DNA of 64,000 nucleotides from Pseudomonas sp. HS6 (GTDB lineage Bacteria > Pseudomonadota > Gammaproteobacteria > Pseudomonadales > Pseudomonadaceae): NCBI RefSeq assembly GCF_023375815.1, contig NZ_CP067412.1:5084001-5148000 (forward strand), read 5' to 3'. The notes beneath the pieces are model-generated. The model saw only the letters and a list, made by a program, of their open reading frames with translations, was not told where the DNA came from and made no database searches. Below, piece after piece: positions 34,841 through 64,000 of the stretch (positions within the stretch are counted from its first letter, which is position 1; each line of letters starts with the position of its first letter). The translations under genes were made by a program, and so were the position numbers.

Positions 34841-34864
34841 TAAATCATTGCGTTTGCCATTCGT
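34841..34864 (+). promoter_or_regulatory. PvdS-type iron-starvation promoter before the first NRPS gene
   Basis: Exact TAAAT (34841-34845), 16-bp spacer, CGT (34862-34864), the sequence recognised by PvdS-family ECF sigma factors in Pseudomonas. It sits 57 bp before the NRPS start, implying Fur/PvdS-dependent expression in iron limitation. Confidence 0.8.
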
Positions 34865-46168: not shown

Positions 46169-49100
46169 GTGCAAGAGTTAATCGAGTCGGTAGGACAACT
46201 TTCGGCTAAGCAAAGAAAGGCTCTGGCGGTTCTGCTCAAGCAGAAAGGCGTCAACCTCTTTGACATTGCCCCGGTTTTCAAGCGCACGGCCGAAGAGCCG
46301 CTGCTGCTGTCCTACGCCCAGCAGCGCCAGTGGTTTCTCTGGCAATGGGCGCCGCACAGCGCGGCCTACAACATTCCGACGGCCCTGCGTTTACAGGGGC
46401 CGCTGGATGAGTCGGCGCTGGAGCGCAGCCTTCAGGCGCTGATCGAACGACACGAAACCTTGCGCACGGTGTTCTCCCAGGAAACCGAACAACCGCTGCA
46501 AACGATCCTCCCGGCAGGATCGTTTGCACTGGAGACTTACCCACTGAGCCCTGAGCTGGCGAGCGACCCGGATGCCTCGATCCAGGCGTTCGTCCAGACC
46601 CAGAGCCAGAAGACTTTCGATCTGCAGCAAGGCCCGCTGTTGCGCGCCGCCCTGTTGCAGGTCAACCCGAACGACCACGTGCTGGTGTTGACCCTGCACC
46701 ACATCGTCTCCGACGGCTGGTCGCTGCAAGTGATGATCGAAGAGCTGGTGCAGCTCTATGCCGGTTTCAGTCTCGGTCACGATGCCGGTCTGCCGGCTCT
46801 GCCAATTCAATACGCCGACTACGCCTTGTGGCAGCGCCAGTGGATGGAAGCGGGCGAACAGGCACGGCAACTGGCCTATTGGCAGGAAAAGCTCGGCGGT
46901 GAACAACCGGTGCTGGAACTGCCGCTCGACCGCGTGCGCAGCGTCGATCAGAGTTTTGCCGGAGCCAGCCACAACCTGATTCTCGATTCACAGCTGAGCC
47001 AGGGTCTGAAAGCCTTTGCGCGGCAGGAAAACGTCACCCTGTTCGTCTTGCTGTTGGCGTCGTTCCAGGCGCTGTTGCACCGTTACAGCGGCCAGTCGGA
47101 CATCCGTGTCGGCGTCCCGGTGGCCAACCGTGGCCGGGTGGAAATCGAGCGTCTGATCGGTTTCTTCGTCAATACGCAGGTGCTCAAGGCCGACGTTGAC
47201 AGCCAGACCCCGTTTGTCGATTTGCTGCGTCAGGTCAAACAAACCGCGCAGGAAGCCCAGGCCCATCAGGACCTGCCGTTCGAGCAACTGGTGGAAGCCC
47301 TGGAGCCGGGCCGCAGCCTGAGCCACAGTCCGCTGTTCCAGGTCATGTTCAACCATCAGGCGGAACGCCGCAGCAGTGTCGAGACGCGCCTCAACGGCTT
47401 GAGCATCGAACCGCTGGAATGGCAGAGCCAGACCGCCCAGTTCGACCTGACCCTCAACACCACCGAACAGGCCCACGGCATCGAAGCGGTGCTCAAGTAC
47501 GCCACCGACCTGTTCGACGCGGCAACCATCGAGCGTCTGGCACAGCACTGGACTGCACTGTTGCAGGCGATCGTCGAAGACCCGTCGCGCAGCATCGGGC
47601 AGTTGCCGATGCTCGATGACGCCCGTCAGCAACAGCTGTTGAATCAATGGAACCCCACGTGGGTCGAGCATCCGGTCGGGCAGTGCATCCATCAGGCTAT
47701 CGAGGCTCAGGCTGAACGGCATCCCGATGCGGTCGCCGTGACCTTTGCCGGACAACGGTTGACCTACGCCGAACTCAATCGCCGGGCCAACCAGTGGGCG
47801 CACCGGCTGATCGCGAACGGGGTCGGCCCGGATGTGCGGGTCGGTGTGGCGGTCGAGCGTTCGCTGGACATGATCGTCGCCATCGTCGCGGTGCTGAAGG
47901 CCGGTGGTGCCTACGTGCCACTGGATCCCGGCTACCCGGAAGACCGCCTGAGCTACATGATCGAGGACAGTGGCATCGGCCTGCTGCTGACCCAGGGTCA
48001 CCTGCAGGCTCAGCTGCCGATTCCGCCGGGGCTTACCTGCCTGGACCTGAGCCAGCCGCTGGAGCAGGGCCGCAGCGAAAACCCGGTCTGCCTGACCACG
48101 CCGGACAACCTGGCGTACGTCATCTATACCTCCGGCTCGACCGGCAAGCCCAAAGGTGCATTGCTCCCGCACAGCAACGTCCTCCGCCTGTTCAGCGCCA
48201 CCGACCACTGGTTCGGTTTCGGCCCGGACGACAGCTGGACCCTGTTCCATTCCTACGCGTTCGACTTCTCGGTCTGGGAAATTTTCGGTGCGCTGCTGTA
48301 CGGCGGCAAACTGGTGGTTGTGCCCCACGACGTCACCCGTTCTCCGGAAGATTTCTACACCCTGCTGTGCGATGAAAACGTCACGGTCCTGAACCAGACA
48401 CCGTCGGCGTTCAAGCCGCTGATGCAACTGGCCAGCGAGTCTTCGCGCGACAACTCGCTGCGTTATGTGGTGTTCGGTGGCGAGGCCCTGGAAGTGCAGA
48501 ACCTGCGACCCTGGTTCGAGCGTTTCGGCGACCGTGCACCGACGCTGGTGAACATGTACGGCATCACTGAAACCACCGTGCACGTGACGTATCGCCCATT
48601 GTCGATGGCCGACCTTGAGCAAAGCCACAGCAGCCCGATCGGCGAACCGATTGTCGACCTGTCGTGGTATCTGCTCGACAGCGCGCTGAACCTGGTGCCG
48701 CAAGGTTGCATCGGTGAGCTTTACATCGCCGGAGCCGGTCTGGCCCGGGGTTATCTGAATCAGCCAGGCATGAGCGCTACGCGTTTTGTGCCCGATCCGT
48801 TCAACCCGCAGGCCGGCGAGCGTCTGTACCGCACCGGCGACCTGGCGCGCCTGCGCGGCGACGGTGTGATCGAGTACATCGGTCGTATCGACCATCAAGT
48901 GAAGATCCGCGGTTTCCGTATCGAGTTGGGGGAAATCGAAACCCAACTGCTCAAGCATCCGGCGGTGCGCGAGGCGGTGGTGCTGGCGGTAGAAGGCCCG
49001 AGCGGTCAGCAACTGGCGACCTGGATCGTGCCGAACGAGGCACTGCAAGCCGATGCCGAGGCGACGCTGCGCGATTCGATCAAGGCGCAACTGCGCGAAG

Positions 49101-52100
49101 CCTTGCCGGACTACATGGTGCCGGTCAGCTGGGCATTCCTCGACCGCCTGCCGCTGACGGCCAACGGTAAACTTGATCGCAAGCAACTGCCGCAGCCGCA
49201 GGTCGCTCAGGTGCAGGAGGCGTATGCCGCGCCGCGCAGTGAACTGGAACAGCAACTGGCCGCCATCTGGCAAGACGTGCTGAAAGTCGAGCGTGTCGGC
49301 CTCAACGACAACTTTTTCGAGCTGGGCGGCGACTCGATCATTTCGATTCAGGTGGTCAGCCGCGCCCGTCAGGCGGGCATCCGTTTCACGCCCAAGGACA
49401 TCTTCCAGCATCAGACAGTGCAGCGCCTGGCCACGGTCGCGCAGCTGAGCGACGTGGTGCTTGCGACCCAGGGCGATGTGCTCGGCGACGCGGTACTGAC
49501 GCCGATCCAGCAGTACTTTTTCCACAGCGATATTCCGGCGCGTCATCACTGGAACCAATCGATCCTGCTGACGCCGGCTTCGCCTCTGGCGGCCGCGCCA
49601 CTGGCGCAGGCGTTGCAGCATTTGCAACGGCACCATGACGCATTGCGTCTGCGTTATCGCGACACCGACGGTGGCTGGCAACAGACCCACGCGCCGGTCG
49701 AACAGAACCTGGAACTGTTGCGTACCGTGACCTTGCAGGACAGCGCGGCGTTGCCGGCGCAGTGCCAGGAACTGCAACGCAGCCTCGATCTGGACAACGG
49801 CCCGCTGATCCGCGCAGTGCTGGTGGACTTGCCGGACGCCAGCCAGCGACTGTTGCTGGTCATTCATCACTTGGTGGTCGATGGGGTGTCCTGGCGGATC
49901 GTGCTGGAAGACCTGCAAACCGCTTATCAACAGCTGACGGCGGGGCAGGCTGTGCGCCTGCCGGCCAAGACCACCGCGTTCAAGGACTGGGGTGCGCGCC
50001 TGCAGGGACATGCGCGCAGTGCCGAGCTGGAAGCCGAGCTGGATTACTGGCGCGGGCAGTTGGTGGGGGCAGGCGTCGAGCTGCCGCTGGACAACCCGCA
50101 AGGACAGTTGAGCAATCGTTTCGAACGCAGCGTCGATACGCGTCTGGATATCGAGCGCACCCGGCAGTTGCTGCAACAGGCCCCGGCGGTCTATCGCACA
50201 CAGGTCAACGACCTGTTGCTGACTGCGCTGGCCAAGGTGCTGTGTGAATGGACCGGCGCCGACAGCGCACTGGTGCAGCTCGAAGGCCACGGCCGGGAAG
50301 ACCTGTTCGACGATGTCGACCTGAGTCGCACCGTGGGTTGGTTCACCAGCATGTTCCCGGTGCGGCTGACTCCTGGCGTCGGTTTCGAATCTTCGATCAA
50401 AGGCATCAAGGAACAACTGCGGGCGATCCCCAACAAGGGCATCGGCTACGGTCTGTTGCGTTATCTGGGCAGCGCCGAGGCACAGGCTGCCCTGAGCGGT
50501 GCGGCGCAGCCGAAAGTGACGTTCAACTACCTCGGTCAGTTCGACAACAACTTTGATGAAGACACGCTCTGGGTGCCGGCCACCGAAGACAAGGGCGCGG
50601 GACAAGACGAACGAGCGCCAATGGCCAACACGCTGACCATCGACGGCCGGGTTTACCAAGGGCAATTGAGCCTGACCTGGACCTACAGCGGCGATGTGTT
50701 CGAAGACGCAACCATTCATGCTTTGGCACTCGCCTATGAAGGGGCGCTGGCCGAGCTGATCGATCATTGCCTGACCCCTTCGAGCGGTGGTCTGACGCCG
50801 TCCGACGTACCGTTGGCCGGGTTGTCCCAGGCCCATCTGGACCACCTGCCGATTGTCGCCCAGCAGATCGAGGACATCTATCCGCTGGCGCCCATGCAGC
50901 AAGGCATTCTGTTCCACAGTCTCTACGACGCCGATGCCAGCGCCTATGTCTATCAGATGCTGCTGGACATCGAAGGTCTGGACGTGGCGCGCTTCCAGCA
51001 AGCCTGGCAGCGCGTGGTGGATCGTCACGAGGTGCTGCGCGCCGGTTTCATCTGGGGCCGCGACGGCCTCGACACGCCGCTGCAAGTCATCCATCGCCAG
51101 CTGACCCTGGAAATGCCCGAAGTGGACATGCGCCACGAACCGGATCAGGCCGTGGCCATGGAAGCACGGGCACGGGCTGATCTGGAGCGCGGTTTCGATT
51201 TGCAGAACCCGCCGCTGCTGCGCCTGTGTCTATTGCGCGTGGCCGATGACCGCCATCGTCTGATCTTTACCTGCCACCACATCCTGATGGATGGCTGGAG
51301 CAACTCGCGGATGTTCGGTGAGGTGCTGCAGGATTACGCCGGCCATCCGGTGCCCGGTGCGCAGGGGCGTTATCGTGACTTCCTGGCCTGGCTGCAAGGC
51401 CAGGACAAATTGGCTGCGCAGGCTTTCTGGCGCGGGCAACTGGCCGAACTCGACGAGCCGACCCGCCTGGCCTCGGCGTGTCCGGGCAAGGTCCGGCCCG
51501 GTGCGGGCAAGGGTGTGCATCGCCTGACGTTTGACGCCGCCTTCACGCGCCGGTTGAACAGTTTCTCCCGACAACAGCAAGTCACCCTCAACAGTCTGGT
51601 GCAGGCGGCGTGGCTGCTGATTCTGCAACGCTACACCGGCCAGGCCACGGTCGCGTTCGGCGCCACCGTGTCCGGGCGTCCGGTGGACTTGCCGGGCATC
51701 GAACAGCAACTGGGTCTGTTCATCAACACCCTGCCGGTGATCGCCAGTCCGCAACCGGGTGTCAGCGTGCGCGACTGGGTCCGCAGCGTGCAGGACAAGA
51801 ACCTGCTGTTGCGCGACTTCGAACAGACGCCGTTGCAGGACATTCAACGCCTGGCCGAACTCAATGGCGAAGCGCTGTTCGACACGTTGCTGGTGTTTGA
51901 AAACTACCCGGTCTCGGAAACCCTGGAAGCCAACCCGGGCGGCTTGCGCTTCGGTGGGCTGGAGCACCGCGAGCAGACCAACTACGGCCTGACCCTGATC
52001 GCCGGTGCCGGCGAGGTCCTGAGCCTGGACTTCAACTACCTCACCGAGCAGTTCGCCGAGCGCAGCGTGGTCGGACTGGCCACACACCTGGAAGCGGTGT

Positions 52101-55100
52101 TGCAGCAGTTCCTGGAATCGCCGCAACGCCTGTTGGGTGAGGTCGGGCTGCTGTCGAGCGCTGAGCACGACACCCTGGCGCAATGGAATGACAATCATGC
52201 GGCGTATCCGTCAGAACGTCTGATTCATCAAGGCTTCGAGGCGCAGGTCCAGGCCCGTCCGCAGGCTCTGGCCCTGAGCCATGGCGGCGCAGCCCTGAGC
52301 TATGCCGAACTCAATCGCCGGGCCAACCAGTTGGCCCGTCATCTGACGACGCTGGGCGTGGGTGCCGAGGTTCGGGTGGGCGTGGCTATGCCGCGCTCGG
52401 CGGAACTGGTGATCGCCCTGATGGCGGTGCTCAAGTCCGGTGGCACCTACGTGCCGCTGGACCCGGACTACCCGGCTGACCGTGTGGCTTACATGCTCGA
52501 AGACAGCCAGGCGAAGGTCCTGCTGACACAACAATCGCTGCTGGCGCAACTGCCGCAGACCGACGCGCAAGTGGTGCTGGTGGAGGCGGGTGGCGAGGCT
52601 TTTGCCGACGTGGCAGGCGACAACCTTGACGTCCGTGGCGATTCGGCCAATCTGGCCTACGTCATTTACACCTCCGGTTCCACCGGCAAACCCAAAGGCG
52701 TGGCGATTGCCCACCGTAACGTCCAGGCGCTGATCCACTGGTCCGCCGACGTTTACAGCGAGGCTGACTTGCAAGGGGTGCTGGCCTCGACGTCGGTCTG
52801 CTTCGACCTGTCGGTGTGGGAGATTTTTGTCACCCTCGCGCGCGGCGGCTCGATCGTCATGGCGCGTAATGCCCTGGAACTGCCGGACCTGCCTGAGCGT
52901 GATCAGGTGCGGTTGATCAACACCGTGCCTTCGGCAATCGCAGCCTTGCATCGCGCCGGGCAGATCCCGTCGAGCGTGCGGATCATCAACCTGGCCGGCG
53001 AGCCTCTCAAGCAAAGTGTGGTCGACAGCCTGTATCGCGAGACTTCGGTCGAGCACGTCTATGACCTTTACGGGCCGTCGGAAGACACCACGTATTCGAC
53101 CTGGACCCGCCGCGAGGCTGACGGCACGGCGAACATCGGCCGGCCGCTGGTCAATACCACCGCGTACCTGCTGGACGGGCAACTGCAAGCGTCGCCGATC
53201 GGCGTGGCTGCCGAGCTGTACCTGGCCGGCGACGGCATCACCCGGGGCTACCTGTTCCGCCCAAGCCTGACGGCCGAGCGTTTCGTGCCGAACCCGGCCT
53301 CGACCACCGGCGAGCGGATGTACCGCACCGGCGACCTGACACGCTTGCTGGACGACGGCCGGATCGAATACGTGGGACGCATCGACCATCAGGTCAAGGT
53401 GCGCGGTTTCCGCATCGAACTGGGTGAAATCGAAGCGCGACTGCTGGCCCGGGACAGCGTGCGCGAAGGCGTGGTACTGGCGGTGGACGGTCTTGGCGGT
53501 CAGCAACTGGTGGCGTATGTGGTGCCGGTTGACGGCGACCTGAGCCATCAGCAGCAGGACGATTTGCGCGATGCGTTGAAGGCTTCTCTCAAGGCCCACC
53601 TGCCGGATTACATGGTGCCGGCGCAGTGGGTGTTCCTTGAGCAACTGCCGCTGACCCCCAACGGCAAACTTGATCGCAAGGCCTTGCCGGCGCCGGACAC
53701 CACCTCGTCGCAGCGTGATTACGTGGCGCCGCGCACCGCGCTGGAACAACAGATTGCCGAGGTCTGGCAGGACATCCTGAAAATCGAACAGGTCGGCGTG
53801 ACCGACAACTTCTTCACCCTGGGTGGCGATTCGATCATTTCCATTCAAGTGGTCAGCCGGGCACGTCAGCAGGGCATTCGTTTCACCCCCAAAGACCTGT
53901 TCCAGCAGCAGACCGTGCAAGGGCTGGCTTCGGTCGCGCAGCTGGGTGAAGCGCCGGTGCTGACCGATCAGGGACCGGTCACGGGTGAGAGCCCGTTGTT
54001 GCCGATCCAGCAGTGGTTCTTCGATCAGGCATTGCCGGAGCGTCATCACTGGAACCAGTCGGTGTTGCTCAAACCGTTGAATCCGTTGGCAGCTGCGACG
54101 CTTGAACAGGCCCTGCGGGCCCTGATCCGGCATCACGATGGCCTGCGTCTGGAATTTGCCGAGCAGCCGCAAGGCTGGACGGCCAGCCACCATTCGCCGG
54201 AGCCACAAGGGGCATCGCCGCTGTGGCTGGAAACCGTGAGCGATGTCGCCGATCTGGAACGCGTCGCCGAGCAGGCCCAGCGCAGTCTCGACCTGCAACA
54301 AGGTCCGCTGTTGCGTGCGGTGCTGTTCGAGCTGCCTGAAGGCGAGCAGCGACTGTTGCTGATCGTTCACCACCTGGTGGTCGATGGCGTGTCCTGGCGG
54401 ATTCTGCTGGAAGACCTGCAAGGACTCTATCGCCAGTTGCACGCCAACGAACCCGTGGCGCTGGCGGCCAAGACCACTTCGTTCAAGGACTGGGCGCTGC
54501 AACTGCAACGTCACGCCCGCAGCCAGGCGTTACTGGAACAACTGCCTTACTGGCAGGCGCAACGCGCGGACGATACGGCGCCGCTGCCTCAAGACAATCC
54601 ACAGGGCAGTCTGCAAAGCCGTCATGCCGTGACGCTCTACAGCCGGTTGAACCAGGCATCGACACGCCGCTTGCTGCAACAGACACCGGCGGCCTACCGC
54701 ACTCAGGTCAACGACCTGTTGTTGACCGCGCTGGCGCGAGTGATCGCACGTTGGAGCGCACAATCGTCGGTGTTGATCCAGCTCGAAGGCCATGGTCGCG
54801 AAGATCTGTTCGACGGCCTCGACCTGACCCGCACCGTGGGCTGGTTCACCAGTCTGTTCCCGGTCAAGCTGACGCCGGCCGAGGACTTGCCCGGCTCGAT
54901 CAAACGCATCAAGGAGCAACTGCGTTCGATCCCCGATCGCGGCATCGGTTACGGTCTGCTGCGTTATCTGGGTGACGAGGCTGGCCGGGAATCGCTGCGT
55001 GCCTTGCCGACGCCTCGTATCACCTTCAACTACCTCGGGCAGTTCGATGGCAGTTTCGATAGCGAGAAGGGCGCCTTGTTCGTCCCGGCCGCCGAGGCCA

Positions 55101-58100
55101 AGGGCGCCGAGCACAGTGACGAAGCCTTGCTGGGTAACTGGCTGACGCTCAACGGCCAGGTGTATGGCGGTGAGTTGAGTGTCGGCTGGTCGTTCAGCAC
55201 GCAGATGTTCAACACCGCGACCATCGAGCGTTTGGCCGACGAGTACGCCCGGGAGTTGGAGCAACTGATCGAGCATTGCTGCCTGCCCGACAGCCACGGC
55301 GTCACGCCTTCCGACTTCCCGCTGGCCCGTCTGGACCAGCCCCGTCTGGACAGCCTGCCGGTGGCCCCGGCAGACATCGAGGACATCTACCCGCTGTCGC
55401 CGATGCAAGAGGGCATGCTGTTCCATACCTTGTCGGATAACGGCTCCAGTCTGTACGTCAATCAGATCAGCCTGCCCGTCAGCGGTCTGGACGTCGAACG
55501 CCTGCGCAAGGCCTGGGAATTTGTCATCGAGCGGCAGGCGATCTTGCGCACCAGTTTCCATTGGCACGATGGGCTGGCCAAGCCGCTGCAGATTGTTCAG
55601 CGCCATGCTGCACTGGATCTGCAAGTGGTCGACTGGCGTGGCCGCGAAGTCAGCGAGGCGGACATCGCCGAGCGGGCCGCGGAGGATCGTGCGCGTGGTT
55701 TCGAGCTGACCCGGGCGCCGTTACAGCGGGTACTGTTGATCCGCAGCAGCGACGATCAGTACCAGATGGTCTGGACCAGTCACCACATCCTGATGGACGG
55801 CTGGAGCAGTTCGCGCCTGTTCGGCGAGGTGATCCAACACTACGGCAAAGGGGAAGTGCGAGGCGAAAACGGTCGTTACCGCGATTTCATCGCCTGGTTG
55901 CAGGCCCAGGATCAAGATGCCCGCGAGCTGTTCTGGAAAGCACGGCTGGCGCCGGTCAACGAGGCGACTGCACTGAGTCAGGCGATTCACCCGCGGCATG
56001 TGTCCGAGGAAACCGGCCACAATGCGCTGTACTCCCATTGGGATGCGCAGCAGACCGCTCGCCTGTTGCAGTTCTGCCGCGATTTGCGCATTACCCCGAA
56101 CACGCTGATCCAGGGCGCGTGGCTGTTGCTGCTGCAACGCTACACCGGGCAAAGCACCGTGACGTTCGGCGCCACGGTGTCCGGCCGCCCGGAAAGCCTG
56201 GCGAACGTCGGCAACATGCTCGGTCTGTTCATCAACACCTTGCCGATCATTCAGACCGTGGAGCCGGACCTGCCGCTGGCGGACTGGCTGAACCGGATCC
56301 AGGCCTACAACCTGGATATCCGTGACCATTCCCAGGCGCCGCTGGCCGACGTGCAGCGTTGGTCCGGTCTGGGCGGGCAGGCATTGTTCGACAGCATCAT
56401 CGTGTTCGAAAACTACCCGATCGATGACCGTCTCCAGGAAGACAATGACACCGGGCTGAGCTTCGGCAAATCCATCGGTCATGACGTGACGAACGTACCG
56501 ATGGACCTGGCAGTGACGTTGGGCGATACGTTGTCGATCGAGTACCTGTTCCTGCGCAACAGCTTCAACGTGGGCGCCGTGGAGGGCATTCGTCGCACGC
56601 TGGAAAACAACCTCGAAGCGATGATGGCTGCGCCGTATGAGCGACTGGGCAATTTGCAGCGGCTGTCACAGGATCAGCTGCAAACCATGGCCACCTGGAG
56701 CGCCGAACCGTTGGCGAACCATCAGCCGGCCTTGCTGCCGGAATTGATCAGTCGCCATGCACAGCAGCAGCCGCAGGCGATTGCCCTGCAATGCGGCGAG
56801 CGGCAGTTGAGCTATGGCGAACTGGAACAACAAGCCAACCGTCTGGCCCATTGCCTGATCGAGCACGGCGCCGGCCCGGAAGTGGTGATCGGTGTCGCGC
56901 TGGAGCGTTCGCTGGAGATGGTCGTGAGCTTCCTGGCCGTGCTCAAGAGCGGTGCCGCGTACGTGCCGCTGGATATTGATTATCCGCCGGAGCGTCTGGC
57001 CTACATGGTCGAGGATTCGGGCATGGCGCTGCTGCTCAGCCACAGCGGTCTGAATCTGCCGGTGCCGCAAGGGTTGCCACGGCTGGACCTCGATCGACTG
57101 GATGCCTTGCGCTACACCGACTCGACGCCGCCGTGCCGGGTTCAGGAACAGAACCTCGCGTACCTGATCTACACCTCCGGTTCGACCGGCAGGCCCAAAG
57201 GCGTGGCGGTCACTCAAGGGCCGCTGAGCATGCACTGTCAAGCCATTGCCGAACTGTACGAGATGGACGCCAGCAGTTGCGAATTGCACTTCATGTCGTT
57301 CGCTTTCGACGGCGCTCACGAGCGCTGGCTGAGCACGCTGTACAGCGGCGGCCGGTTGGTGATTCGTGACGGTTGCCTGTGGACGCCGGAGCAGACCTAT
57401 CAGGCGCTGCACCGGTACGGCGTGACGATTGCGTGCTTCCCGCCGGCCTATCTCAAGCAACTGGCCGAGTACGCCGAGGCCAGCGGCATTGCTCCGCCGG
57501 CGGTGCGCATCTACTGCTTCGGCGGTGATGCGGTGCCTGACCAGACGTTCGAACAGGTCAAGGCTGCGCTGCGTCCCGAGTACTTCACCAACGGCTACGG
57601 CCCGACCGAAACCGTGGTCACGCCGATGCTCTGGAAGGTGCCGGTCGAGCAGCGATGTGAAGCCGCCTACGCACCAATCGGTCGTGCGGTGGGTGCTCGC
57701 TCGCTGTATGTGCTGGACGAGGATCTGAACGTGCTGCCGGCCGGGTTTGCCGGTGAGTTGTACATCGGTGGCTATGGCGTTGCGCGGGGCTATCACCGCC
57801 GCCCGGACCTGACGTGCGAACGTTTTGTGCCGAGCCCGTTCGTGGCGGGTGAACGGCTTTATCGGACCGGTGACCTGGTGCGTCTGCGCCAGGACGGCGT
57901 GCTCGATTACGTGGGACGCATCGACCATCAGGTCAAGGTGCGTGGGTTCCGTATCGAACTGGGTGAAGTGGAGGCCAGCCTGCGTCAACTGGAAGATGTG
58001 ACCGATGCACTGGTCATCGCCCGTGATGCAGTCTCCGGCAAGCAACTGATCGGCTATGTGGTGACGACTGAAGGACAGGATCTGGGTGATGAACTCAAGA

Positions 58101-59830
58101 CCGGCCTGAGAGCGTCGTTGCCGGAGTACATGGTGCCGGCGCAGATTGTCTGCCTGAGCGCCTTCCCGATCACGCCCAACGGCAAGCTCGATCGCAAGGC
58201 CTTGCCCGAACCTGAGTTCAAGAGCCAGGAATACACCGCTCCGCGCAACGAGCAGGAGCAACATCTGGCCGAGATCTGGGCCCAGGTGCTGCAGGTCGAA
58301 CAGGTCGGGATCACCGACAACTTCTTCGAGCTGGGCGGCGACTCGATTCTCAGTCTGCAGGTGATTTCCCGGGTGAGAAACCACCCGACCTTGGAGATGG
58401 ATCTCAAGCTGCGCGACCTGATGCGTTATCAGACCATCGCCGGGATCGTCGAGCAGGACGAAGGCAAGGGCACCGCCAGCCAGGCGTCGGTCGACGTCAC
58501 GCAAGCGGCGCATGAAGGCCTGTTCAATCTGATCCCGATCCAGGAGTGGTTCTTCACCGAGCGCATGGCTGAACCGCATCATTACAACCAGTCGCTGATG
58601 TTGCGCGCACGTCAGGCACTTGACCTGGCGGCGCTGGAGCAGGCTCTGGCCTTGCTTGAAGCGCATCACGACGGCTTGCGCTTGCGCTTCAGTCAGGAGG
58701 GCGGACGCTGGATGCAGCGCTATGCCACCCCGGCCGACCGCCGCGAGCCATTGCTCTGGCAGCGGGAGGCACAAAACCGTGAGGAGATCGAGGCGCTGGC
58801 CAACCTGACCCAGCGCAGCCTGCAACTCGAAGACGGCCCGGCCTGGCGAGCGGTGCACATCGCGCTGCCGGACGGTGAGGCGAGAGTCCTGATGGTCATC
58901 CACCACTTGGTGGTGGATACGGTGTCCTGGCGAATCCTGCTCGACGATTTGAAGGTCGCTTATGAAGCGTGTGTTCGCGGCGTCGATCCACAATTGCCGA
59001 TCCGTACCAGCAGTTACCGTGCCTGGGCCGAAGGGCTGGCGGCGCATGCGCCGCTGGTGGTCGAGCAGGAACTGGCTTACTGGATGAGCGAGCTGGATCA
59101 GCCGGGCGTAGACCTGCCGTGCGATAACCGTCGCGGCAAGAATCAGGTCAAGCAGACGGCGACGGCACGCCTGGAGATGTCTCGCGAACACACCGAGCAA
59201 TTGCTCAAGCAGGTGCCGGCGGTTTATCGCACGCAGATCAATGATCTGTTGCTGGCGGCGCTGAGTCGTGTGCTGTGTCGCTGGAGCGGGCAGTCGTCGG
59301 TATTGGTCCAGCTTGAAGGACATGGTCGTGAAGACCTGTTCGAAGACATCGATCTGAGCCGCAGCCTGGGCTGGTTCACCAGCATGTTCCCGGTGCGTCT
59401 GAGCCCGGGTGCCGACGCCGATATCGGCGGTGCGATTCTGGGCACTCAGGCGCAACTGGCCGCGGTGCCGAACAAGGGCATCGGTTATGGCGTGCTGCGT
59501 CACCTGGCCGGAACGGATGTCGGCGGGCAGTTGGCGGCATTGCCGCAGGCTCGCGTGACGTTCAACTACCTGGGGCAGTTCGACCAGAGCTTCGACGAGC
59601 AGGCATTGCTGGTGCCGGCAGCGGAAAGTGCCGGCGACAACTACAGCTTGCAGGCCAATCTGGGCAACTGGCTGGAAATAGTCGGTCAGGTGTACGAAGG
59701 GCAGCTCACGCTGCGTTGCATCTACAGCACCCAGCGTTATCGGACGCAAACGATGGAGACGCTCATGCACGATTATCAGCGCGAGTTGCAGGCGTTGATC
59801 GAGCACTGCATGGCGCGTGTGGCGCGATAG
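46169..59830 (+). CDS. Pyoverdine NRPS 3: three C-A-T-E modules, predicted D-aThr, Ala, D-OHOrn
   Basis: 4553 residues from a GTG preceded by GAGAGGG. Three C-A-T-E modules: C1 is L-donor type (HHIVSDG near 176), C2 and C3 are D-donor type (HHILMDG near 1702 and 3205). Carriers are all GGDSI (near 1052, 2551, 4054) and E domains follow each (HHLVVDG near 1232 and 2733; HHLVVDT near 4244). Specificity residues by eye: D-F-W-N-V-G-M-V-H-K (Thr), D-L-W-N-N-A-L-T-Y-K (same as NRPS 2 module 2, Ala), D-G-E-C-C-G-G-V-T-K (close to a code I recall for hydroxyornithine). The protein ends with the third E domain; no thioesterase or reductase domain follows, although this is the last synthetase of the row. 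13 bp after NRPS 2. Confidence 0.9.
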   Translation: MQELIESVGQLSAKQRKALAVLLKQKGVNLFDIAPVFKRTAEEPLLLSYAQQRQWFLWQWAPHSAAYNIPTALRLQGPLDESALERSLQALIERHETLRTVFSQETEQPLQTILPAGSFALETYPLSPELASDPDASIQAFVQTQSQKTFDLQQGPLLRAALLQVNPNDHVLVLTLHHIVSDGWSLQVMIEELVQLYAGFSLGHDAGLPALPIQYADYALWQRQWMEAGEQARQLAYWQEKLGGEQPVLELPLDRVRSVDQSFAGASHNLILDSQLSQGLKAFARQENVTLFVLLLASFQALLHRYSGQSDIRVGVPVANRGRVEIERLIGFFVNTQVLKADVDSQTPFVDLLRQVKQTAQEAQAHQDLPFEQLVEALEPGRSLSHSPLFQVMFNHQAERRSSVETRLNGLSIEPLEWQSQTAQFDLTLNTTEQAHGIEAVLKYATDLFDAATIERLAQHWTALLQAIVEDPSRSIGQLPMLDDARQQQLLNQWNPTWVEHPVGQCIHQAIEAQAERHPDAVAVTFAGQRLTYAELNRRANQWAHRLIANGVGPDVRVGVAVERSLDMIVAIVAVLKAGGAYVPLDPGYPEDRLSYMIEDSGIGLLLTQGHLQAQLPIPPGLTCLDLSQPLEQGRSENPVCLTTPDNLAYVIYTSGSTGKPKGALLPHSNVLRLFSATDHWFGFGPDDSWTLFHSYAFDFSVWEIFGALLYGGKLVVVPHDVTRSPEDFYTLLCDENVTVLNQTPSAFKPLMQLASESSRDNSLRYVVFGGEALEVQNLRPWFERFGDRAPTLVNMYGITETTVHVTYRPLSMADLEQSHSSPIGEPIVDLSWYLLDSALNLVPQGCIGELYIAGAGLARGYLNQPGMSATRFVPDPFNPQAGERLYRTGDLARLRGDGVIEYIGRIDHQVKIRGFRIELGEIETQLLKHPAVREAVVLAVEGPSGQQLATWIVPNEALQADAEATLRDSIKAQLREALPDYMVPVSWAFLDRLPLTANGKLDRKQLPQPQVAQVQEAYAAPRSELEQQLAAIWQDVLKVERVGLNDNFFELGGDSIISIQVVSRARQAGIRFTPKDIFQHQTVQRLATVAQLSDVVLATQGDVLGDAVLTPIQQYFFHSDIPARHHWNQSILLTPASPLAAAPLAQALQHLQRHHDALRLRYRDTDGGWQQTHAPVEQNLELLRTVTLQDSAALPAQCQELQRSLDLDNGPLIRAVLVDLPDASQRLLLVIHHLVVDGVSWRIVLEDLQTAYQQLTAGQAVRLPAKTTAFKDWGARLQGHARSAELEAELDYWRGQLVGAGVELPLDNPQGQLSNRFERSVDTRLDIERTRQLLQQAPAVYRTQVNDLLLTALAKVLCEWTGADSALVQLEGHGREDLFDDVDLSRTVGWFTSMFPVRLTPGVGFESSIKGIKEQLRAIPNKGIGYGLLRYLGSAEAQAALSGAAQPKVTFNYLGQFDNNFDEDTLWVPATEDKGAGQDERAPMANTLTIDGRVYQGQLSLTWTYSGDVFEDATIHALALAYEGALAELIDHCLTPSSGGLTPSDVPLAGLSQAHLDHLPIVAQQIEDIYPLAPMQQGILFHSLYDADASAYVYQMLLDIEGLDVARFQQAWQRVVDRHEVLRAGFIWGRDGLDTPLQVIHRQLTLEMPEVDMRHEPDQAVAMEARARADLERGFDLQNPPLLRLCLLRVADDRHRLIFTCHHILMDGWSNSRMFGEVLQDYAGHPVPGAQGRYRDFLAWLQGQDKLAAQAFWRGQLAELDEPTRLASACPGKVRPGAGKGVHRLTFDAAFTRRLNSFSRQQQVTLNSLVQAAWLLILQRYTGQATVAFGATVSGRPVDLPGIEQQLGLFINTLPVIASPQPGVSVRDWVRSVQDKNLLLRDFEQTPLQDIQRLAELNGEALFDTLLVFENYPVSETLEANPGGLRFGGLEHREQTNYGLTLIAGAGEVLSLDFNYLTEQFAERSVVGLATHLEAVLQQFLESPQRLLGEVGLLSSAEHDTLAQWNDNHAAYPSERLIHQGFEAQVQARPQALALSHGGAALSYAELNRRANQLARHLTTLGVGAEVRVGVAMPRSAELVIALMAVLKSGGTYVPLDPDYPADRVAYMLEDSQAKVLLTQQSLLAQLPQTDAQVVLVEAGGEAFADVAGDNLDVRGDSANLAYVIYTSGSTGKPKGVAIAHRNVQALIHWSADVYSEADLQGVLASTSVCFDLSVWEIFVTLARGGSIVMARNALELPDLPERDQVRLINTVPSAIAALHRAGQIPSSVRIINLAGEPLKQSVVDSLYRETSVEHVYDLYGPSEDTTYSTWTRREADGTANIGRPLVNTTAYLLDGQLQASPIGVAAELYLAGDGITRGYLFRPSLTAERFVPNPASTTGERMYRTGDLTRLLDDGRIEYVGRIDHQVKVRGFRIELGEIEARLLARDSVREGVVLAVDGLGGQQLVAYVVPVDGDLSHQQQDDLRDALKASLKAHLPDYMVPAQWVFLEQLPLTPNGKLDRKALPAPDTTSSQRDYVAPRTALEQQIAEVWQDILKIEQVGVTDNFFTLGGDSIISIQVVSRARQQGIRFTPKDLFQQQTVQGLASVAQLGEAPVLTDQGPVTGESPLLPIQQWFFDQALPERHHWNQSVLLKPLNPLAAATLEQALRALIRHHDGLRLEFAEQPQGWTASHHSPEPQGASPLWLETVSDVADLERVAEQAQRSLDLQQGPLLRAVLFELPEGEQRLLLIVHHLVVDGVSWRILLEDLQGLYRQLHANEPVALAAKTTSFKDWALQLQRHARSQALLEQLPYWQAQRADDTAPLPQDNPQGSLQSRHAVTLYSRLNQASTRRLLQQTPAAYRTQVNDLLLTALARVIARWSAQSSVLIQLEGHGREDLFDGLDLTRTVGWFTSLFPVKLTPAEDLPGSIKRIKEQLRSIPDRGIGYGLLRYLGDEAGRESLRALPTPRITFNYLGQFDGSFDSEKGALFVPAAEAKGAEHSDEALLGNWLTLNGQVYGGELSVGWSFSTQMFNTATIERLADEYARELEQLIEHCCLPDSHGVTPSDFPLARLDQPRLDSLPVAPADIEDIYPLSPMQEGMLFHTLSDNGSSLYVNQISLPVSGLDVERLRKAWEFVIERQAILRTSFHWHDGLAKPLQIVQRHAALDLQVVDWRGREVSEADIAERAAEDRARGFELTRAPLQRVLLIRSSDDQYQMVWTSHHILMDGWSSSRLFGEVIQHYGKGEVRGENGRYRDFIAWLQAQDQDARELFWKARLAPVNEATALSQAIHPRHVSEETGHNALYSHWDAQQTARLLQFCRDLRITPNTLIQGAWLLLLQRYTGQSTVTFGATVSGRPESLANVGNMLGLFINTLPIIQTVEPDLPLADWLNRIQAYNLDIRDHSQAPLADVQRWSGLGGQALFDSIIVFENYPIDDRLQEDNDTGLSFGKSIGHDVTNVPMDLAVTLGDTLSIEYLFLRNSFNVGAVEGIRRTLENNLEAMMAAPYERLGNLQRLSQDQLQTMATWSAEPLANHQPALLPELISRHAQQQPQAIALQCGERQLSYGELEQQANRLAHCLIEHGAGPEVVIGVALERSLEMVVSFLAVLKSGAAYVPLDIDYPPERLAYMVEDSGMALLLSHSGLNLPVPQGLPRLDLDRLDALRYTDSTPPCRVQEQNLAYLIYTSGSTGRPKGVAVTQGPLSMHCQAIAELYEMDASSCELHFMSFAFDGAHERWLSTLYSGGRLVIRDGCLWTPEQTYQALHRYGVTIACFPPAYLKQLAEYAEASGIAPPAVRIYCFGGDAVPDQTFEQVKAALRPEYFTNGYGPTETVVTPMLWKVPVEQRCEAAYAPIGRAVGARSLYVLDEDLNVLPAGFAGELYIGGYGVARGYHRRPDLTCERFVPSPFVAGERLYRTGDLVRLRQDGVLDYVGRIDHQVKVRGFRIELGEVEASLRQLEDVTDALVIARDAVSGKQLIGYVVTTEGQDLGDELKTGLRASLPEYMVPAQIVCLSAFPITPNGKLDRKALPEPEFKSQEYTAPRNEQEQHLAEIWAQVLQVEQVGITDNFFELGGDSILSLQVISRVRNHPTLEMDLKLRDLMRYQTIAGIVEQDEGKGTASQASVDVTQAAHEGLFNLIPIQEWFFTERMAEPHHYNQSLMLRARQALDLAALEQALALLEAHHDGLRLRFSQEGGRWMQRYATPADRREPLLWQREAQNREEIEALANLTQRSLQLEDGPAWRAVHIALPDGEARVLMVIHHLVVDTVSWRILLDDLKVAYEACVRGVDPQLPIRTSSYRAWAEGLAAHAPLVVEQELAYWMSELDQPGVDLPCDNRRGKNQVKQTATARLEMSREHTEQLLKQVPAVYRTQINDLLLAALSRVLCRWSGQSSVLVQLEGHGREDLFEDIDLSRSLGWFTSMFPVRLSPGADADIGGAILGTQAQLAAVPNKGIGYGVLRHLAGTDVGGQLAALPQARVTFNYLGQFDQSFDEQALLVPAAESAGDNYSLQANLGNWLEIVGQVYEGQLTLRCIYSTQRYRTQTMETLMHDYQRELQALIEHCMARVAR

Positions 59831-59853
59831 GTCGTCCCGCCTGATGTTCCCCG

Positions 59854-59890
59854 AGGGGCGCTGCCGTTGTGCGCGCCCCTTTTCTTTTTT
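59854..59890 (+). terminator. Terminator after NRPS 3
   Basis: Stem AGGGGCGC (59854-59861) / GCGCCCCT (59873-59880) followed by TTTCTTTTTT. It ends the NRPS transcript and separates it from the hydrolase gene. Confidence 0.88.
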
Positions 59891-59935
59891 GCCGAACTCT
59901 TTGCCTAAACTCGTTTTTCATAAACAAGGATCTCG

Positions 59936-60895
59936 ATGATGTCGTTACACCCCGATCTTGAAGCCTTCCTTGACCTGGCGCAGGACAGCCAGAGTGCGGG
60001 CATGCCGGCCCTCCATCAACTGGCGCCCGCGCAGGCTCGCGCCACGTTCGAGTCGACCACTGCCCAATTGCGCTGGGCGGCTCCGGAGGATGTGCAGGTG
60101 GTTGAACTGAACGCCCCGACCCGGGACGGCGCCGGTTTGCCGTTGCGTCTTTACCGTCCCCACGGCGTGGAAGGCGCGTTGCCGGTGCTGGTGTATTTCC
60201 ACGGTGGCGGTTTTGTGGTCGGCAGCCTGGATTCCCATGACGGCGTGTGCCGCGAATTCTGTCGGCACACGCCTTGCGCGGTGCTTTCGGTCGGCTATCG
60301 GCTGGCGCCTGAACACCGTTTCCCGACTGCACTGGAGGACGGTGAGGACGCGTTGGCATGGTTGGCCGAACAGGCCCGGTCACTGGGTCTGGACAGCAGT
60401 CGTGTTGCGTTTGGTGGTGACAGTGCTGGAGCAACCCTTGCGACGGTGTTGGCGTTACAGGCAGTGGTCGAGCCGTCGAGCGTGGCCATCCGGCCTAAGG
60501 CGCAACTGCTGTGTTATCCGGTGACGGATGCTTCCTGCACCCACGCCTCGCGGGAACTGTTCAGCGAAGGCTACTTGCTGGAGAACGAAACGCTGGACTG
60601 GTTCTACGAGCAATACGCACGCCATCCGGAGGATCGTGTGAACTGGCGTTTTTCGCCCTTGCTGGCCGAAGATCTGCGCGGGGTCGCGCCGGCAATCGTG
60701 ATGCTGGCGGGGCTCGATCCGCTGCTGGACGAAGGCCAGGCGTATGCCGACAAGCTGCGTGAGCACGGTGTGCCTGTAGAGCTGGAAGTGTGCGAAGACC
60801 TGACCCACGACCTGTTGCGCCTGGGGTCTGTCGTACCGCACGTGCTGGAAGTTTACGGACGGTTGGGGAGTGCGTTGAGTCGGCTGTTAGGCTGA
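59936..60895 (+). CDS. Alpha/beta-hydrolase of the HSL (hormone-sensitive lipase) family
   Basis: 319 residues. HGGGF oxyanion motif (89-93), GDSAG nucleophile elbow with Ser163, Asp261 in AGLDPLLDEG, His291 in DLTHDLL: a complete triad. AAGGA lies 5 nt before this ATG and 8 nt before a second ATG at 59939, so either may be used. No signal peptide, so cytoplasmic. It is squeezed between the NRPS genes and the receptor, though behind a terminator. Family members are esterases; here it could release or process the siderophore peptide, which would fit the missing thioesterase domain, but this is a guess. Confidence 0.85.
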   Translation: MMSLHPDLEAFLDLAQDSQSAGMPALHQLAPAQARATFESTTAQLRWAAPEDVQVVELNAPTRDGAGLPLRLYRPHGVEGALPVLVYFHGGGFVVGSLDSHDGVCREFCRHTPCAVLSVGYRLAPEHRFPTALEDGEDALAWLAEQARSLGLDSSRVAFGGDSAGATLATVLALQAVVEPSSVAIRPKAQLLCYPVTDASCTHASRELFSEGYLLENETLDWFYEQYARHPEDRVNWRFSPLLAEDLRGVAPAIVMLAGLDPLLDEGQAYADKLREHGVPVELEVCEDLTHDLLRLGSVVPHVLEVYGRLGSALSRLLG

Positions 60896-60951: not shown

Positions 60952-63432
60952 TCAGAAGTTGGCTTTGAGCGTCATGGTGAAGTTGCGCGGATCACCGTAG
61001 TAGTTGCCGAAGGATTCGGTGCCGATGGTGGTGTAGTAGCGCTTGTCGAACAGGTTGTTACCGTTGAGCGCCACCGACCAGGTGTCGTCGATGCGGTAGC
61101 CGATGCGACCGTTCCATACGGCATAACCGGCCTGGGTGGTTTTGGTGGTACGCGATTCGCGGTAGTTGTCGCTCTGGGCGTTGACGCCGGCACCGACGGT
61201 GAAGCGATCCAGCGGACCGCTCAGCGCATAGTCACCCCACACGCGGAACAGGTGGCGTGGCACGTAGCTGTTGAACACCGCACCGCTCTTGGTGCTGTCG
61301 AGGTCGTCCAGGGTCTTGGTCTGGGTGTAGGTGTAGCCGGCCAACAGTTGCAGGCGGTCGATGACTTCGCCGCTGACTTCAGCTTCGAAGCCCTGGGCGC
61401 GGACCTTACCGGCGTTGACGTAGCAATAGCCGTCGGACGAAGCGCAGGACGAGTTGTAGTCAGTCTGCGCCTGGTCTTTCTGGATGGTGCGGAACAGGTT
61501 GAACGAGCTGTTGACGCGACCGTCCAGCCATTCACCCTTGATCCCCAGCTCGTAGTTTTCACCGACCAGAGGCTTGAGCGCGGCGCCGTCTTCGGACTTG
61601 AAGTTGCCCTGCGGGGTGAAGATGTCGGAGTAGCTGGCATAGGCCGTCAGGTTGTCGGTCAGGTCGTACAGTACTGCCGCAAACGGCGTGACTTCACCGG
61701 TTTCCTTGGTTTTGGCGTTCTCGGAATATTTCCACGCCAGGAAGTACGAATCGGTATCGGACTTGTACCAGCTGACACGGCTGCCCAGCACGACAGTCAG
61801 CGGATCGGCAACTTTCAGGCGCAGTGTCGAGTAGGCCCCGTACTGGGTGGTCAGGGATTTCACCGGGCCGCCACGCATCGAGTTGGTGGTGTAGTAGGCC
61901 TCATCCGGTTTGGCGATGTGACGGTTGGGGTTGAAGACGTCCTGGGTGTTTTTGAGTGCGGCGGTCGAATAGAAGTCGTCCTTGTTCGAGCGACTGGCGT
62001 TCACGCCGACAATCAGCTCGTGCTGCTGGCCGAAACCGTCGAACTTGCCATCGACATAGGCATCCATCCCGTAGTCTTTCTGGTCGTAATCGAACAGGCC
62101 GGTGTACATCGGGATGGTGGTGTTGGCGCTGTTGTTGGCCACGGCACCTTCGGAGAACGCGTACTGGGTGTCCTGGGTGTTCCTGGAGTAAACGCCCGCG
62201 ACTTTCAGCGCCCAGTTGTCGTTGAACTGATGGCTCAGGTCAGTGAAGTACGTGGCGCGCTTGCTGCGCCAGGTGTTCCAGGACGCGCCCAGGCAGGTGG
62301 AACGGCTGAGTTTCAGGTCGCTGCCATCCTTGTAGCGGGGCAGGCCGCCCCAGCACGGACGGGCGTCGACGTCCTCATAGGCCATTCCGATGCCCAGGGT
62401 GGTGTCGGGGGTCAGGTCGTAATCGAGGGCGCCGTAGTAGATCTGGTCTTTGCGGTCGGCGTTGTCGTAGAAGAACTGACGGGTCTGTTCAGCGATGACC
62501 GCGCGACCGCGCAGGGTGCCGGATTCGTTCAGCGGACCACCGGTGTCGATCTGGCCACGATAGTTATCGTAGGAACCACCGGACAGGGTGAGCTCGGTGT
62601 GCGGGGTGGACTGACCGCGCTTGCGCACGAAGTTGACCGCACCGGCGGTGCCGCCCGAGCCTTTCATCATGCCGGCCGCGCCGCGCAGGATTTCGACACG
62701 GTCGTAGTAAGCCATGTCGCTGCTGAAACTGTCGGCTTGCGGATAGCCGTTGCCCATGTCCAGCGGCACGCCGTCGTACTGGTATTGACCGGTCATGCGG
62801 AAGCCGCGGGAATAAAAATACTTGCCGCCCATGGGCGAGTCGTAAACGGTGATGCCTGGCGTCTTCTCCATCACTTGTTCGATGGTGTTGAGGTTCTGGT
62901 CATCGAGCATCTTGCGGGTCATCACAGTGACCGATTGCGGCGTTTCCTTAAGTGAGTGCTCACCTTTGCCGATTGTGACCGCGCCTGCGGTGTAGGAGTT
63001 GCTGCCTTCGGTGGTGGCCGTCAGACGCTGTCCGTTGATGTTGGTCGGTGCCAGTTCCATCGCGTTGCCGGTGGCGGGTGCCAGCAGCGTCACGGTGTTG
63101 CCGTCACGCTGATGACGGATACCGGTGCCTTTGAGCATGGCCGCGATGGCGCTGTCGTCCGCGTATCGGCCGTTAAGGGCGGTGGAATGCAGGCCTTGCA
63201 GCGTTTCCGGGCTGTAGATGATTTGCAGGCTGGTCTGCTGACCGAGCGACTGCAATGCCTGGGCCAGTGGCTGCGCCGGGATGTTCAGGGTCCATTCCTG
63301 GGCCTGGACATACGGGGCGACGGCCAGCGTCATTGCCAGCCCCAGGCCTGTGGTGGCCAGACGGGAACGGGTGGCACCGTGCGCAAGCAGGGCTCGGGTC
63401 AGAGGGCGAAGCATGAAGCGGGATACGGACAT
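60952..63432 (-). CDS. fpvA: TonB-dependent ferripyoverdine receptor with signalling domain
   Basis: 826 residues. Signal peptide to about residue 45 (...LAPYVQA-type end), then an STN signalling domain (about 46-120; LNIPAQPLAQALQSLGQQTSLQIIYS), the TonB plug (about 160-280; KETPQSVTVMTRKMLDDQNL, VEILRGAAGMMKGSGGTAGAVNFVRK) and a beta-barrel ending ...FTMTLKANF with the terminal Phe expected of outer-membrane proteins. The STN domain implies cell-surface signalling through an FpvR-like anti-sigma and FpvI/PvdS-like sigma, none of which is in the window. pvdE lies upstream on the same strand. Named from context; receptor specificity cannot be read directly. Confidence 0.85.
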   Translation of the reverse strand: MSVSRFMLRPLTRALLAHGATRSRLATTGLGLAMTLAVAPYVQAQEWTLNIPAQPLAQALQSLGQQTSLQIIYSPETLQGLHSTALNGRYADDSAIAAMLKGTGIRHQRDGNTVTLLAPATGNAMELAPTNINGQRLTATTEGSNSYTAGAVTIGKGEHSLKETPQSVTVMTRKMLDDQNLNTIEQVMEKTPGITVYDSPMGGKYFYSRGFRMTGQYQYDGVPLDMGNGYPQADSFSSDMAYYDRVEILRGAAGMMKGSGGTAGAVNFVRKRGQSTPHTELTLSGGSYDNYRGQIDTGGPLNESGTLRGRAVIAEQTRQFFYDNADRKDQIYYGALDYDLTPDTTLGIGMAYEDVDARPCWGGLPRYKDGSDLKLSRSTCLGASWNTWRSKRATYFTDLSHQFNDNWALKVAGVYSRNTQDTQYAFSEGAVANNSANTTIPMYTGLFDYDQKDYGMDAYVDGKFDGFGQQHELIVGVNASRSNKDDFYSTAALKNTQDVFNPNRHIAKPDEAYYTTNSMRGGPVKSLTTQYGAYSTLRLKVADPLTVVLGSRVSWYKSDTDSYFLAWKYSENAKTKETGEVTPFAAVLYDLTDNLTAYASYSDIFTPQGNFKSEDGAALKPLVGENYELGIKGEWLDGRVNSSFNLFRTIQKDQAQTDYNSSCASSDGYCYVNAGKVRAQGFEAEVSGEVIDRLQLLAGYTYTQTKTLDDLDSTKSGAVFNSYVPRHLFRVWGDYALSGPLDRFTVGAGVNAQSDNYRESRTTKTTQAGYAVWNGRIGYRIDDTWSVALNGNNLFDKRYYTTIGTESFGNYYGDPRNFTMTLKANF

Positions 63433-63547: not shown

Positions 63548-64000
63548 TCAAGCAGTCTGCAGTTCGCTTTTGACCTTTCCGGCCTCCATGCGCACCAGTT
63601 GATCGGCTACGTCGAAGTAACGGTCATCGTGGGAAATCACGATGATGGTCTTGCCCAGCCGTTTCAGGTCGGGCAGAAGCTCGGTGTAGAAAATCCGCCG
63701 GAATGTCGGGTCCTGATCGGCGGCCCATTCGTCGAACACCAACACCGGACGCTCTTCGAGCCAGGCATTGACCAGTGCCAGGCGCTTGCGCTGGCCGGTG
63801 GAAAGGTCCGTGGTGGTGAAGGCGCCGTCGCGCACGCTGACCTTGTGCGCGATCTCCAGACGTTCGAGGTAGCGGGTGGCGTCCTGTGGTACTTCGCGAT
63901 CGCCCTGGATCAAGTCGTCGAACAGGTAGTAGTCGGCAAAGATCGTGGTGAAGTTCTGTCGGTAGTCGTCACGGTTCAGCGCGGTGATCGGTTGGCCGTT
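63548..64000 (-). CDS. pvdE: Pyoverdine precursor ABC exporter, C-terminal part (runs off the window)
   Basis: The last 150 residues of the ATP-binding domain; the 5' part is beyond 64000. The signature loop reads LSTGQRKRLAL rather than LSGGQ, Walker B is VLVFDEWAADQDP, and the H-loop is VISHDD. This combination is typical of the PvdE/SyrD cyclic-peptide exporter group, which moves the acylated precursor to the periplasm, where maturation takes place. Upstream of fpvA on the same strand. Confidence 0.88.
   Translation of the reverse strand, partial: NGQPITALNRDDYRQNFTTIFADYYLFDDLIQGDREVPQDATRYLERLEIAHKVSVRDGAFTTTDLSTGQRKRLALVNAWLEERPVLVFDEWAADQDPTFRRIFYTELLPDLKRLGKTIIVISHDDRYFDVADQLVRMEAGKVKSELQTA

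Follow-up and report, generated by a model that had tools for sequence, protein, structure and literature searches.

A hydrolase gene behind a thioesterase-free pyoverdine synthetase: a candidate deacetylase of the terminal hydroxyornithine

We analysed a stretch of 64,000 nucleotides from Pseudomonas sp. HS6 (contig NZ_CP067412.1, positions 5,084,001 to 5,148,000; hereafter the window), in which the peptide-building part of a pyoverdine locus lies. The last of its three nonribosomal peptide synthetases (NRPSs), NRPS3, ends in an epimerization (E) domain without a thioesterase (TE) and is followed by a gene for a hydrolase of the HSL family. We observed that this type of hydrolase (hereafter HSL) tracks a terminal hydroxyornithine (OHOrn) module of the DGE[CA]CGG type and the acetyltransferase PvdY, not the loss of the TE. 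From sequence comparisons, we lean towards the view that the HSL deprotects the terminal residue, whose unmasking at N5 would lead to lactam closure and release. Removal of an acetyl group from the last building block is a more likely task for it than replacement of a release domain.

Hydroxyornithine ends with and without a thioesterase

By Pfam, NRPS3 contains six condensation-type, three AMP-binding and three PP-binding stretches but no TE (PF00975), and the open reading frame (ORF) stops after its final domain, whose motifs HHLVVDTVSW (at 58901) and EGHGRE (at 59315) we take to be of the E type. This bears out a preliminary description of the window, which had proposed an E-domain end without an in-line TE as well as a terminal OHOrn; the last adenylation (A) domain carries the code DGECCGGVT, which is of OHOrn type. 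The GHSLG thioesterase that it had named elsewhere in the window is real too, being a match to PF00975, and so is the GDSAG gene behind NRPS3, which starts 105 bp past the NRPS3 stop and encodes intact catalytic features (HGGG, H89-G91; GDSAG with S163; D261; H291). These features place the protein, on sequence grounds, in the HSL / GDXG family. In an alignment of 102 sequences, H89, G90, G91, D261 and H291 are present in all 102, S163 in 101 and D162 in 96, and a PF00975 search of the own genome (E <= 0.001) returned nothing where the HSL gene lies. The best NCBIfam neighbours are LipP1 (NF058653, 304.8 bits) and chloramphenicol hydrolase (NF033149, 222.8 bits), and the HSL belongs to neither family, both scores lying under the curated cut-offs of 350 and 500. 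A quick HSL tree, with long branches, united the 90 siderophore-linked HSLs (96% SH-aLRT), and the 12 HSL paralogues included from Pseudomonas and one related genome fell outside this group. Within this tree the E-ended lines fall into two groups, and E- and TE-ended lines carry HSLs of different branches; the HSLs of the E-ended lines may nevertheless have a single origin. In one Pseudomonas genome (G033, L012) the HSL match spans residues 2-279 of 319, possibly because of a truncated or frameshifted end, and in two loci (L091, L175) the HSL stands at a contig start.

At odds with the preliminary description would be a TE-bearing NRPS protein for the same line elsewhere in the genome, and we searched for one. 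Among the ten PF00975 places in the genome, none that lies in a long NRPS frame adjoins pvd genes; these frames sit in other clusters, at 2.19, 2.62, 2.70 and 2.71 Mb, and a TE for this line on a separate protein was not found. The 2.62 Mb cluster is a lipopeptide-like line with tandem TEs, and the line at 2.68-2.71 Mb opens with its own A domain. The NRPS that starts with this A domain (C1 2.683-2.706 Mb; L029, L030) has what we take to be cyclization-like and C-terminal oxidase-like domains, and it is followed by a C-A-T-TE protein (C, condensation; T, carrier) and by a 3071 aa ORF with another TE. At C1 2.188-2.196 Mb (L033), two NRPS genes are followed by a second gene of the Lys/Orn-monooxygenase family (349 bits), and together these may be a pseudomonine-like siderophore line.

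The relation between HSL and line end was surveyed in the 80 named loci that ranked best, by likeness to the window HSL, among 576 confirmed candidates. An NRPS end lies at most 900 bp upstream of the HSL in 67 of them, with 21 E ends and 46 TE ends, and neither was seen in the other 13. The last A-domain code is DGE[CA]CGG[VI]T in all 65 named loci where it could be read, in E and TE lines alike. Chance neighbourhood of HSL and NRPS is rejected by these 67 loci, and a simple replacement of the TE by the HSL is rejected by the 46 that retain it. The survey that the preliminary description had suggested, in which loss of the TE should pair with presence of the hydrolase, thus came out against such a pairing.

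The same picture was seen among 95 relatives, in which, the window's genome aside, the 19 top-ranking HSL loci all sit behind an NRPS (8 E and 11 TE ends; the nine TE sequences read have the motif GWSLGG). A TE model built from TE-ended OHOrn-type relatives (A2) gave 25 strong matches (E < 1e-95) in the 95 relatives, and 22 of them adjoin an HSL; a weaker match (L143) brings the number to 23 TE loci, which may overlap the named loci in species. Of the three strong matches without an adjoining HSL, one is on a contig that stops 73 bp past the TE (G002), and the other two genomes (G056, G003) have the HSL in a pyoverdine tailoring cluster elsewhere. In G056 (L174) it is flanked by an Aminotran_5 gene on one side and an Aminotran_3 gene on the other, an additional ORF also lying in this interval, and by sequence the surroundings in G003 (L176), L076, L085 and L090 resemble this arrangement. 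When 59 Pseudomonas genomes (G000-G058) were searched, with E <= 1e-75 defining an HSL-positive genome, the HSL was found directly behind the last NRPS in 32 of the 35 positives; in two of the others it belongs to a tailoring cluster, and in one a contig end interrupts the locus. Several of the HSL genes that do not follow an NRPS are still within a pyoverdine gene cluster.

For control, 23 of the 24 HSL-negative Pseudomonas genomes (G014 was left out) were searched for PF00975, and 23 TE stretches were fetched from 16 of them; these are a subset, the genomes searched having more TE places in long frames, part of them in tandem. No HSL of at least 60 bits was found in any of the 23 stretches. 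Twelve of them end in codes that we take to stand for Ser, Gly, Ala or Asp, nine of the twelve with a TonB receptor in the stretch (L168 is on a short contig), and seven are further NRPS lines or a stand-alone TE. The remaining four end in OHOrn-like modules of different code or layout: DGECTGGIT-TE in G044, DGECTGGVT and DGESCAGVT, each then E-TE, in G013 and G020, and E-TE in G028. The siderophore-type lines of G013, G020 and G028 (L154, L158, L159) end A-T-E-TE with a receptor downstream and without an HSL, and the codes in the two that were read are OHOrn-like; a TE can thus follow a terminal E domain. In G044 (L165), where PvdY is present and an HSL was not seen, the receptor is unusually close to that of the window (801 bits), and acetyl-OHOrn may persist as the last residue of the product.

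Co-occurrence and fusion with the PvdY acetyltransferase

Presence of the HSL coincides with that of the PvdY family (PF13523; E <= 1e-20 in the Pseudomonas set). Among the 59 Pseudomonas genomes, 35 have both, none has the HSL only, 4 have PvdY only and 20 have neither. In a family-wide draw of 198 genomes from 19 genera (HSL-positive at E <= 1e-70), PF13523 was found in 36 of 36 HSL-positive and 42 of 162 HSL-negative genomes, the HSL and PF13523 searches being taken as one draw; all 36 HSL-positives are in the PF13523 list. Pooled, this makes 70 of 70 distinct HSL-positive genomes, the two sets overlapping in the window's genome (G000) only. Of the four Pseudomonas genomes with PvdY and without an HSL, G013, G044 and G053 have siderophore-type ends of other code or layout, and G028 is the fourth.

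PvdY is kept where the only OHOrn-type module read is terminal. In the window's genome the OHOrn-type code occurs solely in the last module of the line, and PvdY (PF13523, 197 bits, 340 aa frame) is encoded beside a PvdL-like gene; G032 and G054 have the same layout, with PvdY and, in the stretches read, a single terminal OHOrn-type module, and in G015, which has PvdY as well, the 35 kb read contain no OHOrn-type module other than the terminal one. The genome is thus predicted to have both a terminal OHOrn A domain and PvdY, as belongs to a PvdY-dependent pathway to cyclic OHOrn (cOHOrn). A formyl instead of an acetyl mask was considered and rejected, since there is no PvdF-like gene among the six PF00551 places of the genome, the family to which we take PvdF to belong, and none of the six is a formyltransferase gene near pvd genes; presumably they are purN, fmt, two purU, arnA and one longer protein.

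Outside Pseudomonas, HSL and acetyltransferase can form a single protein. Two Variovorax loci, L092 of Variovorax guangxiensis and L109 of an uncultured member, each have an ORF that comprises Abhydrolase_3 and Acetyltransf_8, and an ORF with a PvdA-like motif comes after it; a protein search retrieved 15 full-length clusters of this natural fusion, with names from Variovorax and Rhodoferax. An NRPS of L092 ends in DGEAVGGVT and then E, without a TE. In Halomonas (L114, L115) and Nitrosospira (L110, L113), only a few genes separate acetyltransferase, PvdA-like oxygenase and HSL (by Pfam in L110 and L114, by motif match only in L113 and L115), with a TE-bearing NRPS on the opposite strand in all four; the last code is DGEAVGGVT with a TE in L110, L113 and L115. 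Altogether, 6 of 11 loci of clearly other genera have the acetyltransferase in the stretch, and it was not seen in the stretches of L101, L102, L103, L107 and L111, of which L107 and L111 are short contigs.

These observations meet a gap in the description of the known pathway. According to the relevant passages of two papers, a cOHOrn-ended type II pyoverdine requires PvdYII, an acetylase, with acetylation believed to be necessary at some point before release (PMC6206403; PMC9569983). P. putida KT2440 has pvdYII (PMC3596284, in the passage concerned), while the OHOrn of its pyoverdine is described in part of another paper as single, terminal and cyclic (PMC5187384), so that the acetyl group must leave. 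No enzyme for its removal is named in the PvdYII passages of this literature, and in the parts of the open-licence literature that were available no text linking this hydrolase to pyoverdine was found, nor did the word "hydrolase" occur in the papers searched for it.

Unmasking, release and alternative explanations

We propose the following course of events. PvdA would hydroxylate ornithine and PvdY would acetylate N5 of the hydroxyornithine, so that the nucleophile is masked during activation, loading and condensation, the last A domain presumably loading acetyl-OHOrn. After the last condensation, and here epimerization, the HSL would deacetylate the terminal residue while this is still bound to its carrier. 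The N5-hydroxylamine thus set free could then attack its own thioester without further catalysis, yielding the six-membered cyclic hydroxamate cOHOrn and freeing the peptide. A TE, where present, may help ring closure; it would be dispensable where the line ends in E, because the lactam closing on the thioester itself releases the chain. The preliminary description had suggested that either a hydrolase or spontaneous lactam formation stands in for the TE: a stand-in role of the HSL does not agree with the TE kept in most lines, while spontaneous lactam formation would survive as the last step, enabled by the HSL. An unmasking HSL would explain the indifference to the TE, the tie to the type of terminal module and the tie to PvdY, and the fusion and co-occurrence bear, though only indirectly, on the predicted N-deacetylase function, which would be of the kind known from Bah (see below). 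In its widest form, the proposal is that of a mask-and-unmask release switch in siderophore lines of Pseudomonas, Variovorax, Nitrosospira and Halomonas, in which PvdY and a cognate HSL hydroxamate deacetylase would keep the last residue inert until the chain is complete and then trigger TE-free, self-cyclising release; this we put forward tentatively.

Several observations weigh against this proposal. The A-domain tree, for which every second terminal A domain was taken (33 of 65), puts the last-module A domains in a clade apart from the internal DGECTGG/DGECTCG ones, which probably load acetyl-OHOrn; because of this separation the last A domains might load free OHOrn, and a shared A-domain lineage for terminal and internal acetyl-OHOrn is not supported. 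Four terminal A domains with DGEAVGGVT (minus strand; Variovorax, Nitrosospira, Halomonas) group beside the Pseudomonas terminal clade. The tree leaves it ambiguous whether DGECCGGVT stands for acetyl-OHOrn or OHOrn; in the code passage of PMC12283262, from which DGECCGGVT is absent, DGEACGGVTK and DGECTGGITK are among N-modified ornithine codes that are not readily distinguishable. The co-occurrence has its own weak points. The Fisher p-values (3.8e-12 for the 59 Pseudomonas genomes, 5e-18 for the family-wide draw) overstate the evidence because the genomes are related and the co-occurrence is not phylogenetically independent, and in 4 of the 70 HSL-positive genomes (G022, G026, G049, G161) the sole match is a frame of no more than 210-220 aa, which may be another GNAT. 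Furthermore, PvdY occurs without the HSL in 4 of 39 and 42 of 78 PF13523-positive genomes, so that PvdY does not imply the HSL. The Halomonas locus L114 has HSL and acetyltransferase but the last code DVWNMGLIH, and in the window a terminator-like hairpin (59853..59881) separates NRPS3 from the HSL gene.

Could the HSL instead be a trans-acting release enzyme, a thioesterase or cyclase working on the last T domain in place of the TE? It stands directly behind the NRPS in all 21 E-ended named loci, a number to be read with the caveat that E-ended lines without an HSL would be missed because the named loci were found via the HSL, and the different tree branches of the HSLs of E- and TE-ended lines look as if fitted to different ends. 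Against an enzyme of this kind stands the in-line TE kept in 46 of the 67 HSL-flanked ends, and there is no evident reason why it should be fused to a hydroxyornithine acetyltransferase or accompany PF13523 in every one of the pooled HSL-positive genomes; we consider this explanation unlikely. It also seems improbable to us that free OHOrn is loaded and released as a spontaneous lactam, or with help from the type II TE, while the HSL performs some other pathway task such as side-chain trimming or hydroxamate turnover. Closure of a six-membered lactam by a free N5-hydroxylamine should be chemically easy, a type II TE is present in the window, and the last A domains do form a clade of their own, but this account leaves unexplained why the HSL was seen after lines that end in this code but not after those of the control set, why a genome with no OHOrn module except the terminal one retains PvdY, and why HSL and acetyltransferase are fused.

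The fusion or close linkage to the acetyltransferase would also fit a shared small substrate, namely if the substrate of the HSL were free acetyl-hydroxyornithine, or carrier-bound monomers with a wrong acyl group, and the HSL balanced acetylated and free pools instead of acting at release. Deacetylation of the free pool would, however, undo the work of PvdY, the HSL gene lies behind the last NRPS in 32 of the 35 HSL-positive Pseudomonas genomes, and the PvdY-positive, HSL-negative genomes G013, G044 and G053 are those whose siderophore-type ends have another code or layout. We regard pool balancing as very unlikely, and unmasking of the terminal residue at release as the reading to be preferred.

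The locus and related systems

The features of the window are given in Table 1. With the A codes read as residues (DLTKIGHVG as Asp, DLWNNALTY as Ala, DFWNVGMVH as Thr and DGECCGGVT as OHOrn type), the order of the peptide is Lys, Asp(E), Ala, Thr(E), Ala(E), OHOrn(E). The first code, DGEDHGTVV, is assigned to Lys in a passage of PMC12283262, and a pyoverdine of identical residue order, Lys-OHAsp-Ala-aThr-Ala-cOHOrn, has been published (PMC8888394), where cOHOrn is reported with a y1 ion at m/z 131.08. The E domain after the second Ala module (window 53993-55300, approximate) is missing in G032 and G054, whose lines are co-linear with this one in other respects, and because of this extra domain the fifth residue may be D-Ala here.

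Table 1. Features of the pyoverdine peptide locus in the window
Feature	Position	Strand	Remarks
Type II thioesterase	32971..33711	+	PF00975, 142 bits; probably editing
TauD-like hydroxylase	33736..34734	+	weak family match; likely Asp beta-hydroxylase
PvdS-box-like site TAAAT-N16-CGT	34841..34864	+	5' of NRPS1
NRPS1	34922..38323	+	C-A-T, code DGEDHGTVV (Lys type)
NRPS2	38320..46155	+	codes DLTKIGHVG (E after it), DLWNNALTY
NRPS3	46169..59830	+	4553 aa, C-A-T-E-C-A-T-E-C-A-T-E, without TE; codes DFWNVGMVH, DLWNNALTY, DGECCGGVT
NRPS3 last A domain	56729..58258 (end approximate)	+	code DGECCGGVT, OHOrn type
NRPS3 terminal epimerization domain	58508..59827	+	final domain of the whole line
Terminator-like hairpin, then U-rich tract	59853..59881	+	between NRPS3 and HSL gene; -20 kcal/mol, z -3.27; not in terminator-scan list
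HSL-family (Abhydrolase_3-type) hydrolase	59936..60895	+	S163-D261-H291; proposed N5-deacetylase of terminal acetyl-hydroxyornithine
TonB-dependent siderophore receptor	60952..63432	-	TIGR01783, 383 bits
PvdE-like ABC exporter gene, start only	63548..64000, continues beyond window	-	name presumed from sequence

That this is a pyoverdine locus follows from a receptor beside the peptide NRPSs and from PvdL-, PvdA- and PvdE-like as well as tailoring genes of the same genome. On the 3' side of the window lie ORFs that we take to be PvdE-, PvdN-, PvdM- and PvdP-like, together with a PvdA-like oxygenase at 5160294, and the PvdL-like gene is found at 4.04-4.05 Mb, about 1.1 Mb from the window. The hydroxylase gene before NRPS1, whose TauD-like name is likewise our assumption, has homologues adjoining other siderophore-type NRPSs. 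The PvdS-box pattern was found twice in the window against 2.66 occurrences expected by chance, i.e. without enrichment. A strong hairpin with a T tract lies at window 60909-60937, between the convergent HSL and receptor genes.

We believe that a conserved, genetically linked candidate deacetylase makes the question of how cOHOrn arises directly testable and that, if the proposal is true, the ability of an entire group of pyoverdine synthetases to do without a TE would be accounted for. In reviews, the origin of the cyclic hydroxyornithine end is an open point, the acetylase being needed and the product lacking the acetyl group there. On a practical matter, TE-less lines would be of importance for genome mining because a published pipeline marks the end of the pyoverdine line by the TE (PMC11444679, section 5).

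Among characterized relatives, EH1AB1 (6i8d, 216 bits) and a serine hydrolase of the EST2 group (1evq, 208 bits) share family and catalytic motifs with the HSL, but both are general esterases, unlike the siderophore-linked enzyme. A functional parallel would be Bah, the HSL/GDXG acetyl-hydrolase of bialaphos biosynthesis, by which a protecting N-acetyl group is cleaved off in another NRPS pathway. Whereas Bah deacetylates the phosphinothricin nitrogen once assembly is over, the proposed target of the window HSL is an N5-acetyl hydroxamate whose removal would trigger release. The terminal TE of the PvdD type occupies the same place in the pathway, and the TE-ended OHOrn-type relatives from which model A2 was built have one type of TE in common; the line of the window does without it. 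A further parallel is the type II pyoverdine of P. aeruginosa with PvdYII, which, in the passages describing it, shares the terminal cyclic OHOrn, the dedicated acetyltransferase and the absence of the acetyl group from the final residue (PMC6206403, PMC3596284); there, PvdD is described with a TE and no deacetylase is named, whereas the line described here ends in an E domain with a partner HSL.

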